From positions 1-62,490 of the forward strand of contig PEWV01000013.1 of assembly GCA_002780005.1 (NCBI GenBank): 62,490 nucleotides of DNA, written 5' to 3'. The position numbers were made by a program, and so were the translations under genes. Shown piece after piece: positions 5,990-62,385 of the stretch (within the stretch, counting starts at the first letter, position 1; the number at the start of each line of letters is the position of its first letter). Source of the stretch: Candidatus Aquitaenariimonas noxiae. GTDB taxonomy: Bacteria > Omnitrophota > Gorgyraeia > Aquitaenariimonadales > Aquitaenariimonadaceae. The notes beneath the pieces are model-generated. The model was not told where the DNA came from. It saw only the letters and a list, made by a program, of their open reading frames with translations, and searched no databases.

Positions 5990-8080
5990 CTATTGGACAT
6001 ATTTCAACGCTTTAAGTTGTTGCATTAGTGCCTGGCCCCGAGTTTCTTTAAAAACATTAAGTCTTACCTTTTCACAATGGTTTTTATAAAAATCAAGTTT
6101 TTCCTGCATAAATTTTAAGATCCCAGGTTCTGCAGAAACTAAATTATTCAATTCGTACGGGTCGCTTGTCAGATTGTACAGCTCTTCACGGCCACTATTT
6201 TTTATATCTCTGCACTCTGATTTTATGGTGTAAATATACTTCCATCCGTCATTTTTTATTATACCCTTAAGCACAAATCTACTCCTGTCAAAATCTTCAT
6301 CAATAAACCCGTATTCAAAGAGTTCGGTATCGATCTCGTTTTCCATCAATTGTAAAAAGCTTACCCCGTCTAAATATGATTTGCAGGGTACATTTAGAAA
6401 ATCTAATATTGTGGGCATGATATCAATGCTTCTTACCCATTGGCTGATAACCTTTCCTTTAGGATGGGCTTTGCCATATTTTATAATCAAAGGTATGCTT
6501 AGCACTTCTTGATATATAGTTTGTCCGTGTCTCCAATTGTTATGTTCTCCAAGAGACTGGCCATGGTCTGCAGTGATTATAATCAAGGTTTTATTATAGA
6601 TCCCCAACGTTTTAAGTTTTTTTAAAAGTTCGCCTATATAAGTATCTGCAAAATGTATCTCAGCGTCATATAATGCGACATAATCCTCCTCATCGCTGTT
6701 TGAATCATAGGAAAACAAATTTCTATAAGGCCGTGGAAGTGAAAACGGCCAGTGCGGTTCCATGCAGTGTATGAACATAAAAAAGTTCTGATCTTTATAT
6801 TTCTCAAGCCACCCTATTATCCTGTCATTGTCGGCTTTTGCGTTCTTTCTATCAAGCCAGGTGAAACTCTTGCCGGTCACCTTTTGCATAAAAGATAAAT
6901 TTTGCAAGATAACGTGATGTATCTTGTCTCTCATTCTATAATCATCAAAAAAGTCAAAACCCTGATCAAAATTAAATATTTTTTTAAGTACTGGCGTAGC
7001 TACATACCCGTATGTTACATATCCCTCTTTTTTTAGTATCTCAGGAAGCGTAATCACTTCATCGGGCAGAATACTATTGTCATAAACAGCCATATGTACG
7101 CCGGGATACAGTGAAGTCAACAACGAAGCGACCGAAGGTCTAGTCCAAGATGCCTGGGCGTAACAATTTTTAAATAAGATTCCCTCTTTTGCGATAGAAT
7201 CTATGTTGGGGCTTGTCTGCCTTTCATAACCGTAACACCCAAGATGGTCGGCCCTTAAACAATCTATTACGATCAACAGTATATTCACATCGTTTTTGAC
7301 GCTGGAAGATATTTTTCTATAACCAGTAGTCGATTTTTTAGCAGCCCAATCAAATCCAAAAATAGCAATACAGGTAATAAGTACCACGGAAAGCAAGGCA
7401 ATCAATTTTAAATGAAATTTTATGCGCCGTCGGGTATAAAACCAAAATAAGGCTATATATAAAACACTGTAAATTAAAATTATGGCTAAACCCAAGACGA
7501 TTAAAATAAAAATGAAATGCAAAGAATTTCCTTTACTTATGATGTTAGACGAAACATCAAGCGGCTCGTATAAATTAAAAAAGACTATGAAAACAATAAA
7601 CGAAAACAAACTTAATACAGTGCATTTCTTGGCCATTCCTGCTTTGCTCATAAAAAAGTATACGGAATAAAATGCTATAAAAACCAAAAGACATAGGAGG
7701 GGTATTAAAAGCTCGGATAAAAAGACAGGTGTGCTTAATATTTGGATACCTGTTAAAGAAATCCAGGATGTTATTAGCAGTATGCAACATAAAAAAAAGT
7801 ATTTTTGAAGGTTAGTTTTTGATCTTACGAAAACATCAAAAATTTTATTAATAGTAAACAAAAATATAGAAACGGAAACGGAAAATAGTAAGAAAAAAAG
7901 AAAAACAGGATGGTTAACAAGCGGGTACCTTTCTAGTATGACTATTAATATAGAATGTTGATAAGATGTTATCTTTTTAATGACAGAGAGAAAGAAATGT
8001 GTGAAATTTGAATTGTTGATTAAAGATATAACCGGAATAATACCTAAAGCGCTAAACGTATATTTTTTTGTAAACCTCAT
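5990..8080 (-). CDS. Membrane-anchored sulfatase-fold (alkaline phosphatase superfamily) enzyme
   Basis: About 696 residues. The N-terminal 240 residues hold six or seven hydrophobic segments, followed by a sulfatase-type domain outside the cytoplasmic membrane. Seen: the metal-site strand NILLIVIDCLRADHLGC, the active-site segment ASWTRPSVASLLTS (near residue 310), ITADHGQSLGEH and HWPFSLPRPYRN. Aligning WTRPS with the sulfatase CxPSR motif puts Thr at the nucleophile, as in LtaS/EptA-type transferases, rather than a Cys or Ser matured to formylglycine. It may therefore be a phosphotransferase or hydrolase instead of a true sulfatase. The ATG at 8080 is chosen; a GTG at 8089 is in frame. A TATAAT box at 8101-8106 sits very close to the start. 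Confidence 0.8.
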   Translation of the reverse strand: MRFTKKYTFSALGIIPVISLINNSNFTHFFLSVIKKITSYQHSILIVILERYPLVNHPVFLFFLLFSVSVSIFLFTINKIFDVFVRSKTNLQKYFFLCCILLITSWISLTGIQILSTPVFLSELLIPLLCLLVFIAFYSVYFFMSKAGMAKKCTVLSLFSFIVFIVFFNLYEPLDVSSNIISKGNSLHFIFILIVLGLAIILIYSVLYIALFWFYTRRRIKFHLKLIALLSVVLITCIAIFGFDWAAKKSTTGYRKISSSVKNDVNILLIVIDCLRADHLGCYGYERQTSPNIDSIAKEGILFKNCYAQASWTRPSVASLLTSLYPGVHMAVYDNSILPDEVITLPEILKKEGYVTYGYVATPVLKKIFNFDQGFDFFDDYRMRDKIHHVILQNLSFMQKVTGKSFTWLDRKNAKADNDRIIGWLEKYKDQNFFMFIHCMEPHWPFSLPRPYRNLFSYDSNSDEEDYVALYDAEIHFADTYIGELLKKLKTLGIYNKTLIIITADHGQSLGEHNNWRHGQTIYQEVLSIPLIIKYGKAHPKGKVISQWVRSIDIMPTILDFLNVPCKSYLDGVSFLQLMENEIDTELFEYGFIDEDFDRSRFVLKGIIKNDGWKYIYTIKSECRDIKNSGREELYNLTSDPYELNNLVSAEPGILKFMQEKLDFYKNHCEKVRLNVFKETRGQALMQQLKALKYVQ

Positions 8081-14991: not shown

Positions 14992-16119
14992 ATGAAAAAA
15001 ATTAAAGTAATCAATGTTGTTGGATGCAGGCCAAATTTCATCAAAATTTTACCCATAATGAATGAAATGAACAAACATCAAGAGCAATTCAAACAGATTT
15101 TAGTCCATACGGGACAACATTATGATGGCGCTATGTCGAAAACCCTTTTTGAAGATATTTACCTTCCCCAACCGGATGTTTATTTAGGTATTGGCTCAGG
15201 AGCACATGCCGAACAAACGGCAAAGATTATGATTGAATTTGAAAAAGTTTGTATTGACAAAAAACCGGACCTGGTTTTGGTGGTAGGCGACGTTAATTCT
15301 ACCTTAGCGTGTAGCTTAACCGCAGCAAAATTATGCATTCCCATTGCGCATGTAGAAGCAGGTCTTAGGAGCTTTGATCGCTCTATGCCTGAGGAAATTA
15401 ATAGAATAGTTACAGATTCTTTATCCAGTTTTCTTTTTACTACTTGCAGGGATGCAGATAAAAACTTGAAACGAGAAGGCATTTCCGGAAAAAAAATTTA
15501 TTTTGTAGGAAATATAATGATCGATACGCTTATTAAATTTAAAGCAAAAGCTGCAGCAAATACTTGGAAAAAAATGAAAAATATAGATTACGTGCTCTTA
15601 ACCTTACATAGACCAAATAATGTCGATGATAAACACGCGCTTGAAAATATACTTGAGGCGCTCCATGAAATATCAAAGAGGATGCCAATCATATTTCCAG
15701 CCCATCCAAGGACGCAAAAGCAAATCAAAGTCTTTGGTTATGAAAAATATTTTAGACCTTTTGATTTAAAGCAAATAAATTTTATTAACTCTAAAAACTT
15801 AATAAATCTAACAAACCCACTTCCTTATCTTGAATTTTTAAATTTAATGATTAATGCAAAATTTGTCCTTACAGATTCAGGGGGAGTGCAGGAGGAAACA
15901 ACATTTTTAGGCATTTCTTGTTTGACCATTCGTGAAAGTACCGAACGGCCCATTACAGTAGCAGAAGGAACTAATATATTGGTGGGGACCGATAAGGAAA
16001 GAATAATTAATGAAAGTTTGAAAATTATAAGCGGTAGAGGTAAAATGGGTAAAGTACCAAAATTTTGGGATGGTAAAACTGCAAAAAGAATTGTGAATAT
16101 TTTTAAAAAAACACTTTAA
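14992..16119 (+). CDS. wecB: UDP-N-acetylglucosamine 2-epimerase, non-hydrolysing
   Basis: Interconverts UDP-GlcNAc and UDP-ManNAc, the entry to ManNAc-derived sugars in surface polymers. About 375 residues from the ATG at 14992; an upstream TTG at 14962 is in frame but less likely. Seen: GCRPNFIKILPIM at the N-terminus, TGQHYDGAMS, GDVNSTLA, the strongly conserved HVEAGLRSFDRSMPEEINR (about 117-135), and LTDSGGVQEE near residue 290. All are hallmarks of the family's GT-B-like fold. It closes the glycan locus, directly before tRNA-Thr. The enzyme family is sure; the alternative of a hydrolysing epimerase is less likely by sequence style. Confidence 0.92.
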   Translation: MKKIKVINVVGCRPNFIKILPIMNEMNKHQEQFKQILVHTGQHYDGAMSKTLFEDIYLPQPDVYLGIGSGAHAEQTAKIMIEFEKVCIDKKPDLVLVVGDVNSTLACSLTAAKLCIPIAHVEAGLRSFDRSMPEEINRIVTDSLSSFLFTTCRDADKNLKREGISGKKIYFVGNIMIDTLIKFKAKAAANTWKKMKNIDYVLLTLHRPNNVDDKHALENILEALHEISKRMPIIFPAHPRTQKQIKVFGYEKYFRPFDLKQINFINSKNLINLTNPLPYLEFLNLMINAKFVLTDSGGVQEETTFLGISCLTIRESTERPITVAEGTNILVGTDKERIINESLKIISGRGKMGKVPKFWDGKTAKRIVNIFKKTL

Positions 16120-16151
16120 TTTAATTTTGCTAAAAGTGGTTACACGAATAT

Positions 16152-16227
16152 GCTGGCGTAGCTCAATTGGTAGAGCAGGGCTTTCGTAAAGCTCAGGTCA
16201 TCAGTTCAAGTCTGATCGCCAGCTCCA
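16152..16227 (+). tRNA. tRNA-Thr (CGT anticodon)
   Basis: Full cloverleaf: acceptor GCTGGCG/CGCCAGC, D stem GCTC/GAGC, anticodon stem GGGCT/AGCTC with loop TTCGTAA (anticodon CGT, reading ACG), T arm ATCAG-TTCAAGT-CTGAT, and an encoded CCA. The last 12 bases recur at 16338-16349 at the end of a foldback element. Confidence 0.95.
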
Positions 16228-16237
16228 TAGTTCAAAA

Positions 16238-16349
16238 AGCTGGGGGGTGGTTTCCCGCCTATGCTAGACTTTAAACATGCATGAGCGGGACCCCGCGCAC
16301 GAGTTGCAAAAAGGAAGCGTAGGCGGGGCAACTCCACTCGCCAGCTCCA
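16238..16349. repeat. Foldback element ending in a copy of the tRNA-Thr tail
   Basis: The left arm starts AGCTGG (16238) and runs through CCCGCCTATGCT (16254-16265). The right arm holds AGCGTAGGCGGG (16316-16327) and CCACTCGCCAGCT. The arms pair over about 28 bases with few mismatches. In the middle lies the inner palindrome GCGGGACCCCGC. The right end TCGCCAGCTCCA (16338-16349) is identical to the 3' end of tRNA-Thr (16216-16227). Confidence 0.65.
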
Positions 16350-16362
16350 CTATTCCACAAAA

Positions 16363-17619
16363 ATGGCTAGATTTCGGCATGTCTTAAAAAATAAGAACTT
16401 TTTTTGCCTCTGGGTAGGCCAGATCATATCTCAGTTCGGCGACAGGCTGAACCAGATGGCGCTGATAGCTTTAGTTTATCACAAATCTCCCGGTTCCACG
16501 ATTGAACTCGCCAAGCTTTTATTTTTTATAGTAATCCCGGTATTTGTAATAGGCCCAATAGCTGGGGCCTATGTCGACAGGTGGAACAGAAAATATACAA
16601 TGATCGTGTCTGATATTTTAAGAGGCGTTTTAGTCCTTCTTATACCTTTCTCTATTATTTTTTTAAAACAAACCGTTTTCATTTATCCACTTGTTTTTAT
16701 AATATTTTCGGTAACCCGTTTCTTTCTCCCCAGCAAAATGGCTATAATTCCGAGTATAGTGTCGCCGGATCAACTTCTTGTAGCGAATTCATTATCGGAT
16801 ACAACCAGGATGATCGCGACAGTTATAGGCTTAGGGTTCGCCGGTATTTTGGTAAAGTGGGTTGGCGTGATCGGGAGTTTCTATATTGACTCAGTATCAT
16901 TTTTTATATCAGCGCTATTAACAGCTGCGATAGTTGTTAAAGAAGCAAAGCCAAAATTTAAAAACGGGCTTTTAGTCGCTGAAGAAGCTATAAAAAATGC
17001 AATGAAAAGATCTATTTTTGCTGATATAAAAGCTGGGTTTGAGTATCTGATAAAATTGGAAAAGATACGCTTTGTCGTTTCTATTTTGTTTTTGCTCATG
17101 TCCGGTATAGGAGCTATATTTTGCGTTATTATAGTATTTATACAGAATTCATTTGGTACAATAACAAGCGATATAGGCCTTTTAGGAATGTTTTTGGGGA
17201 TAGGGCTTTTTGCAGGGACTGTTTTTTATGGCAGGGTTATGCAGAACTTCACCAAAAGTAAGGTTATATTTACAAATCTTGCTATAATAGGTGCGTCGAT
17301 TGTTGCGTTTACAGTTTTTGTAAAAGAATTCCAGTCGTTTCTATTCGCTTCGATATTAAGTTTTACAATAGGGTTCTTTGTCGGGCCCATTATTGTCCTA
17401 TGCAATACCCTGGTTCAAGAGGCCTTGCCGGAAGACGCCAGGGGAAGGGTCTTTAGTTCCGTGGAGGCAATTATGCATTTGGGTTTCTTGGTGTTTATGC
17501 TTCTTACTTCTTTCTTAGCTGAATTTATAGGTAACGCTTGGATATTGATAATAATAGGCGGAATATTTAGTCTCTTTGGGATAGGGGGGATTATCTTAAA
17601 ACTAAAGGCAAAGAATTAA
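16363..17619 (+). CDS. MFS transporter (12 membrane segments)
   Basis: 418 residues with about 12 hydrophobic helices, major facilitator superfamily, in the style of MFS_3/enterobactin exporter-like proteins. Seen: the N-terminal FCLWVGQIISQFGDRLNQ (about 14-31), the loop 2-3 motif GAYVDRWNRK (about 67-76), and DARGRVFSS in the C-half. The polar loop at about 190-215 is the central cytoplasmic linker. It probably exports a small molecule by proton antiport; the substrate is unknown. It starts just after the tRNA-tail foldback with no visible Shine-Dalgarno. The stop faces a small Cys-rich gene on the other strand only 4 bases away. Confidence 0.88.
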   Translation: MARFRHVLKNKNFFCLWVGQIISQFGDRLNQMALIALVYHKSPGSTIELAKLLFFIVIPVFVIGPIAGAYVDRWNRKYTMIVSDILRGVLVLLIPFSIIFLKQTVFIYPLVFIIFSVTRFFLPSKMAIIPSIVSPDQLLVANSLSDTTRMIATVIGLGFAGILVKWVGVIGSFYIDSVSFFISALLTAAIVVKEAKPKFKNGLLVAEEAIKNAMKRSIFADIKAGFEYLIKLEKIRFVVSILFLLMSGIGAIFCVIIVFIQNSFGTITSDIGLLGMFLGIGLFAGTVFYGRVMQNFTKSKVIFTNLAIIGASIVAFTVFVKEFQSFLFASILSFTIGFFVGPIIVLCNTLVQEALPEDARGRVFSSVEAIMHLGFLVFMLLTSFLAEFIGNAWILIIIGGIFSLFGIGGIILKLKAKN

Positions 17620-62236: not shown

Positions 62237-62337
62237 TGCACCAGCCGCCGACAGGTGTTCTTGGTTCCTGTTTTTGCCTGCCCTTAAGTGAAGTTCCAAA
62301 ATTTTTCCCGCTTATACCTGACTTTACGCAACACATG

Positions 62338-62349
62338 GCGGGATCCCGC
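62338..62349. repeat. Perfect palindrome with CATG flanks
   Basis: GCGGGATCCCGC is a perfect 12-base palindrome, flanked by CATG on both sides (62334-62337 and 62351-62354), followed by CATGCC. The motif pair CATGCATG and GCGGG-CCCGC also occurs in the foldback after tRNA-Thr (16274-16296). Confidence 0.6.
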
Positions 62350-62385
62350 ACATGCATGCCTAGATATTAGTTTAGACGGGAAGTT

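Follow-up and report, generated by a model that had tools for sequence, protein, structure and literature searches.

The window, by which we mean the whole stretch of DNA analysed, is a single 62,490-base contig from a draft genome of 1.93 Mb in 81 contigs; in what follows, G000 denotes this genome, other G numbers further genomes, C numbers contigs, and L numbers loci. An intact tRNA-Thr(CGT) gene with an encoded CCA lies at 16152..16227 on the forward strand (ARAGORN; Rfam RF00005, 66 bits), and the ORF list places a transporter-like gene of 418 amino acids, MFS-type by eye, at 16363..17619 on the same strand. Tail sequence of the tRNA-Thr is repeated between these two genes, as the first-pass annotation reported: there are exactly two copies of TCGCCAGCTCCA in the 62,490-base window, one at 16216 and one at 16338, and none of its reverse complement. 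The annotation was also right that the intervening DNA forms a foldback. On the tRNA strand, its folding energy is -57.3 kcal/mol versus -39.4 +/- 3.3 kcal/mol for shuffled sequences (z -5.4), and none of 200 shuffles matched its stability. A search of 16100-16500 against Rfam returned the tRNA only, with no other known RNA family.

The anatomy of this foldback differs from that first proposed: the fold is strong, but its outer arms are a split tRNA relic that is separate from the element inside. The inner part is a 76-nt dispersed palindromic element (16253..16328, forward strand; recognised by BLAST copies and by the covariance model R1 described below) that starts with TCCCGCC and ends with GGCGGGG, while the outer part comprises a tRNA T-arm, acceptor strand, and CCA. 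The near side of the relic (16246..16252, forward strand; GGTGG TT) corresponds to the T-stem 5' strand and the start of the T-loop of a second tRNA-Thr, with the same T-arm as the tRNA-Thr genes of loci L019 and L017. The far side (16329..16349, forward strand), recognised by joined-flank identity, supplies the remainder of the T-loop, the T-stem 3' strand, the 3' acceptor strand, and TCCA, and includes the 12-nt tail copy at 16338-16349. When the two sides are joined, 26 of 28 positions are identical to the last 28 nt of the L019 tRNA-Thr(CGT), compared with 23/28 for the L017 tRNA-Thr and 20/28 for the intact neighbour; the relic is thus closer to a gene in another Omnitrophota genome than to the one beside it, which may not be its exact source. 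The element sits between T55 and C56 of the relic T-loop. These sequence comparisons put the outer arms (16246-16252 and 16329-16349) outside the element, and such arms vary among the places where it occurs. The 12-nt tail closes a 28-nt relic that retains the T-arm, 3' acceptor strand, and CCA of a second tRNA-Thr gene. Upstream of the relic, GCTGG at 16239..16243 (forward strand) is identical to tRNA-Thr nt 1-5 and may be what is left of the second gene's 5' acceptor strand, although a match of only 5 nt could arise by chance.

Relatives of the transporter ORF were found at four loci in the genome collection (L017-L020), three from Candidatus Omnitrophota and one from an uncultured bacterium. 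In L017 and L019, a tRNA-Thr(CGT) gene precedes the same transporter gene, and the palindromic element is absent from both of these orthologous loci. L019 carries a different insert, ending in an exact 20-nt copy of its tRNA-Thr tail, while L017 carries other repeats with no tail copy. Since what lies there differs among L017, L019, and the window, separate lineages have had the same site struck by different inserts. At L018 (1-300), two tandem units precede the transporter gene, each ending in the tRNA-tail-like sequence CGAATCCTCTCATCGGCTCCA.

The palindromic element is not unique to this locus. BLAST within the own genome gave 11 matches at ten places, query included, and the covariance model R1, built from nine copies, found 21 distinct places (40 matches with both strands counted). 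The nine-copy alignment has a consensus hairpin of 28 pairs, and the shared part (16253-16328) consists of two similar halves, oppositely oriented and pairing with one another. Most copies have terminal inverted repeats, starting with TCCCGCC and ending with GGCGGG(A/G). R1 matches occur in 7 of 59 genomes, own included (E 0.01), and in 20 of 384 genomes of the class (1e-4). A second model, R2, built from 41 copies, has matches in 102 of 384 genomes of the phylum, although it is looser and possibly includes other double hairpins. Many of the source copies of both models lie in tRNA relics, and the models hold just 2-3 nt of flank.

At four own-genome places, the element lies 3' of an intact tRNA with the tRNA 3' end repeated beyond it (Thr in the window; Pro on C2; Leu on C25; Leu on C11), so the tail copies that the annotation proposed to look for at other tRNA 3' ends do recur there. 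Two further copies split the 5' part of a tRNA, upstream of the intact gene (tRNA-Glu on C18; tRNA-Asn on C78). By their flanks, the other 15 places fall into one larger repeat (5), another larger repeat (8), and two single sites; with 13 of the 21 places within two larger dispersed repeats, independent non-tRNA events must be fewer than the count of places. The second window copy (62304..62383, reverse strand) is of this kind, lying in a larger dispersed repeat with no adjoining tRNA. A larger repeat holding the palindromic element was seen at window positions 62304-62383 and at L059, L053, L061, L058, L062, L063, and L065; the element-bearing larger repeat falls several times at contig ends, which suggests that the assembly breaks there. 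The palindromic family is dispersed across these genomes and looks mobile. The original proposal of a small mobile foldback element is supported by dispersed copies, by exact insertions in tRNA sequence, and by the lack of the element at the orthologous L017 and L019. The absence of both other copies and an empty site would have counted against that proposal; copies were found at 21 own-genome places, and two orthologous loci are without the element.

Insertion of the element into tRNA sequence appears to be precise to the base. When the element is excised and its flanks are joined, uninterrupted tRNA is restored over 42/42 nt for tRNA-Glu (L057), 32/32 nt for tRNA-Val (L104), 26/26 nt for another tRNA-Glu (L047), 20/20 nt for tRNA-Gly (L046), and 35/35 nt for tRNA-Pro (L179). 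Because the joined flanks at L057, L104, L047, and L046 are plain tRNA, insertion occurred without added duplication and without loss, which rules out a target-site duplication. The "target-site-like duplication" of the first-pass annotation accordingly holds in one respect only: tail copies recur at other tRNAs, but the element itself makes no target-site duplication. The tail copy belongs to a partial tRNA copy, of which it is the far portion, and at many other loci it is the 5' head that is copied. The junction motif, TTY|RAA, is alike at tRNA sites and elsewhere, and tRNA T-loops offer such sequence: T occurs at -2 in a fraction of 0.90 of 52 tRNA sites and 0.73 of 62 other sites, and A occurs at +2 in 0.85 and 0.89 of these sites, respectively. 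Hairpins were considered as a general target and set aside, as their excess at non-tRNA sites is weak (p 0.009, not motif-matched).

Partial tRNA copies are a strikingly frequent setting of the element. We read 118 elements, from loci that included 59 of a larger list of R2 matches, and dropped four that were cut by contig ends, leaving 114 testable elements. Of these, 52 sit in a partial tRNA copy that has the intact gene on the same strand within 700 nt, equivalent to 52 of the 64 elements with any tRNA within 700 nt; only 21 of 2000 random nearby sites in the same neighbourhoods reached the partial-copy score. The 52 divide evenly: in 26, the intact gene comes first with a 3' copy behind it, split almost always in the T-loop, and in 26, a 5' copy comes first, split in the D-arm, anticodon arm, or T-loop. 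The remaining 62 of the 114 are not in a recognised same-locus tRNA copy, a result that we count against the explanation favoured below.

From the perspective of the tRNA genes, 13 of 38 in the own genome have a partial self-copy within 700 nt (score at least 11), or 14 of 38 once the sub-score tRNA-Pro on C2 is added by eye, and 24 of 38 have no recognised copy. At a score of at least 13, partial copies accompany 7 of 38 tRNAs in the own genome, 3 of 38 in G023, and 0 of 26 in G004, where the fetched regions cover 26 of 45 listed tRNAs. As G023 has no R1 match, partial copies are not confined to R1-bearing genomes. By eye, the own-genome partial copies are all interrupted or ended by hairpin-forming sequence, weakly so at the tRNA-Val on C18, and the inserts do not belong to one family. 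At the tRNA-His of L052 (C2, contig position 6110), a 22-nt palindrome lies in a unit of ~59 bp (tRNA-His nt 1-14, palindrome, and spacer) that is repeated twice, with no differences, directly before the intact tRNA-His; a palindrome similar to this one is present at the tRNA-Pro on C53. In 26 relics, 108 of 130 T-stem pairs still pair, including 29 in which both sides differ from the intact neighbour; put differently, 29 of 64 changed pairs are altered on both sides yet pairing. Compensatory evolution of the relic arms was considered, but the window case is explained by the T-arm of another tRNA-Thr, and we do not use these pairs as evidence of selection.

A second insert family, ~150 nt long and marked by GAGGAAAAGCG, GGTGGCCGACCCGAA, and GGGCGCC blocks, was observed at tRNA-Gly, tRNA-Lys, and tRNA-Arg genes, where it terminates in the portion of the tRNA between T-loop and 3' end, copied exactly or nearly so (L067, G000:C43, 451-690; L071, G000:C35, ~423-570; L206 and L216 in another genome). 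Within the own genome, it is found at two tRNA-Gly genes only. Both G023 tail copies of tRNA-Lys and tRNA-Arg are separated from the tRNA by this family, as judged by eye. A comparison of the family with Rfam gave tRNAs and two matches far below the gathering score that overlap tRNAs, and nothing else.

Small GIY-YIG nuclease genes recur beside the tRNAs and their relics. The own genome has eight GIY-YIG matches, six of them in small genes, and five of these six have a tRNA no further than ~130 nt away; four of the five stand immediately 5' of that tRNA, in the same orientation. At eight loci in seven genomes, a GIY-YIG ORF lies between a split head relic and the intact tRNA (L057 and L064 in the own genome; L099, L047, L161, L164, L172, and L183), filling a relic-to-tRNA gap of 244-278 nt at tRNAs for Glu, Asn, Arg, and Asp; all eight ORFs were assigned to PF01541 by Pfam. 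The nuclease ORF of L064 begins directly behind the relic and runs into the intact tRNA, which contains its stop codon. Among small GIY-YIG loci in relatives, which were mostly the best per genome out of many, 10 of 29 have a tRNA within 200 nt, versus ~0.4 expected by our own arithmetic from tRNA density. Two of these, L136 and L138, which were found independently of the element, show the following tRNA's head as a relic that other palindromes have split, and in L127 the GIY-YIG gene is followed by a 3' relic. In L138 (G043:C34), the duplication takes in the head of tRNA-Ser along with ~80 nt upstream of it, and the GIY-YIG gene lies between the copies. There is no GIY-YIG gene at the window tRNA-Thr, nor at most relic loci, and all 59 relatives searched carry GIY-YIG genes whether or not they have the element, which we also count against the favoured explanation.

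The explanation that best joins these observations, and that we consider probable, is a non-autonomous palindrome that enters the loops of tRNA genes and survives only where an intact copy remains. The palindrome would insert as a single unit, precisely and without target duplication, at TTY|RAA, with what seems to be a strong preference for tRNA arms. Insertion into the sole working copy of an essential tRNA would presumably be lethal, so the surviving insertions would be those in extra partial copies. The partial copies probably come from local duplication during repair of a break in the tRNA gene, and the small GIY-YIG nucleases at many such loci, by analogy with phage SegB, are the likely cutters. 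The relic beside the window tRNA-Thr would then be a scar, for which no function is needed. Against this explanation also stand the partial tRNA copies of G023, a genome with no R1 match, the closer likeness of the window relic to the L019 tRNA-Thr than to its own neighbour, the weakness of the hairpin excess at non-tRNA sites, and the lack of a transposase tied to the element, no R1 copy lying in the stretches read around the five Y1 genes. A more far-reaching version, which we regard as conceivable but hold with clearly less confidence, is a tRNA-gene parasite of Omnitrophota in which the palindrome moves between tRNAs along with the tRNA relic and the nuclease while the host is not killed: the GIY-YIG enzyme may cut a tRNA gene, repair may leave a partial copy plus a regenerated intact gene, and palindromic units may lodge in the partial copy, in its T-, anticodon-, or D-arm.

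Alternatively, the split relic and palindrome, with or without a GIY-YIG gene, could be one composite selfish unit, which is copied into tRNA genes after their cleavage by the nuclease, whose carried intact tRNA sustains the host, and whose nuclease-free forms are non-autonomous offspring. This possibility, about as tentative as that of the parasite, is consistent with the recurrence of the 244-278 nt relic-to-tRNA distance in eight loci, the abutting nuclease ORF of L064, and the proximity of 10 of the 29 small GIY-YIG loci in relatives to a tRNA, but palindromes are also present at a distance from any tRNA, the same relic position is taken by several unrelated ones, and GIY-YIG genes stand at tRNAs without a recognisable relic in L116, L117, L121, and L107. 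The segment of a tRNA from the T-loop to the 3' end is a known kind of attachment segment, and tail copies of just this extent at the C35, C43, C55, and G023 loci and in L019 could point to an integrase having inserted an element at the tRNA 3' end; the tail copy would then be the far attachment site left by an element that has since shrunk. We consider this unlikely for the palindromic element: the near side holds the other half of the T-arm (in L048, ~45 nt of tRNA-Pro extend across both sides), half of the cases are head copies, many of them split in the D- or anticodon arm, and inserts of ~80 nt are far too short for an integrase element. The annotation's relic of integration at a tRNA 3' end is compatible with the second insert family at tRNA-Gly, tRNA-Lys, and tRNA-Arg but is disfavoured for the element in the window.

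Somewhat less plausible still is that the tail copy and hairpin form a functional RNA device, for example one that acts as a decoy or guides the processing of the upstream tRNA. For the decoy pairing suggested in the annotation, base complementarity is the sole support. The strong fold on the tRNA strand and the frequency with which relic arms still pair are in keeping with such a role, but the two-sided changes in the window belong to a different tRNA-Thr, such as that of L019, and another isoacceptor may equally be the source of other relics. Furthermore, head relics comprise only the 5' part of the tRNA and lack the tail, making decoy pairing impossible there, and the 24 own-genome tRNA genes without a recognised copy would have to do without the device. 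The least probable of these alternatives, in our judgement, is reverse transcription of a mature, palindrome-bearing tRNA followed by integration beside its gene. In most of the fresh cases, as read by eye, copy identity does stop no more than a few nt from the ends of the tRNA, but relics of tRNAs without encoded CCA (L097, L098, and L101) are also without CCA, and the copies in L138 and on C35 extend ~80 and ~50 nt, respectively, beyond the tRNA.

Short palindromic repeats are common in bacteria, and for many of them, the choice of target and the moving enzyme are unidentified. With a readable target, TTY|RAA in the arms of tRNAs, insertions reversible to the base at dozens of sites, and a recurring nuclease neighbour, the present family makes both target choice and mobilisation testable. 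The palindrome in partial tRNA copies also offers a route by which tRNA genes may gain or lose neighbours, and it calls for caution, since a partial tRNA copy in a genome of this kind may be no tRNA-derived regulator but a scar that mobile DNA has left. The palindromic repeat as such is of a known kind. As far as our searches of the open-licence literature show, what is new is the tRNA target, the base-precise insertion, and the partial tRNA copies with their GIY-YIG company; no account of this arrangement was found in those searches.

Mobilisation by a RAYT was considered and set aside for lack of evidence: the own genome has five Y1 genes, but no R1 copy lies beside them (0 matches in 15,403 bases around the five), and other repeats occupy their flanks. 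Several of these RAYT-like transposase genes (L012-L016) lie among GGGACAGGTC-type inverted repeats, with which they apparently constitute a separate REP-like system. REP and REPIN sequences of the GTAG and CGTC superfamilies are short palindromes, and the CGTC types are described, in the relevant part of PMC3733652, as having no dedicated transposase. The element resembles them in being a short dispersed palindrome, present singly or in pairs of opposite orientation, with no coding capacity, but it prefers tRNA-gene copies at TTY|RAA and has no linked Y1 transposase. Many copies have GTAG or TTAG overlapping the first bases of their final GGCGGG, the ends of the element being TCCCGCC and GGCGGG(A/G). 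Of the features of a MITE of a DDE transposon, terminal inverted repeats are present, while a fixed-length target-site duplication is absent. A tRNA 3' segment at both insert ends, as in a tyrosine-integrase element, was not found, with 26 of the 52 copies being head copies. With regard to a SegB-like homing cassette, the window locus has no GIY-YIG gene, while eight other element loci have one.

Phage T6 SegB, a GIY-YIG enzyme, cuts tRNA-containing DNA and is required for tandem amplification of tRNAs with segB, according to the excerpted account (PMC13096335). A GIY-YIG nuclease beside tRNA genes is common to both systems, but SegB belongs to a phage in which full segments are amplified, with no palindromes mentioned in that excerpt (PMC13096335), whereas the predicted nucleases here are of ~80 amino acids and are encoded on bacterial chromosomes. 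Mitochondrial repetitive hairpin and double-hairpin elements are two-hairpin units that look mobile, as portrayed in part of PMC2800124; the present element differs in its bacterial chromosomal setting, its tRNA-arm target, and the partial tRNA duplication. Dada elements code a transposase. These eukaryotic DNA transposons insert in tRNA genes around the anticodon and nt 8-13, produce target duplications of 6-7 bp, and rely on many tRNA copies, according to sections of PMC8869645. The tRNA-gene target is alike, but here there is no target duplication and a local partial copy is found instead. Rickettsia palindromic elements (RPEs) are palindromes inside genes that are tolerated by the host, and they are known mainly within protein genes. 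RPE ends are noted in a portion of PMC3733652. A palindrome lodged in a gene is common to RPEs and the element described here, the hosts in our case being tRNA relics.
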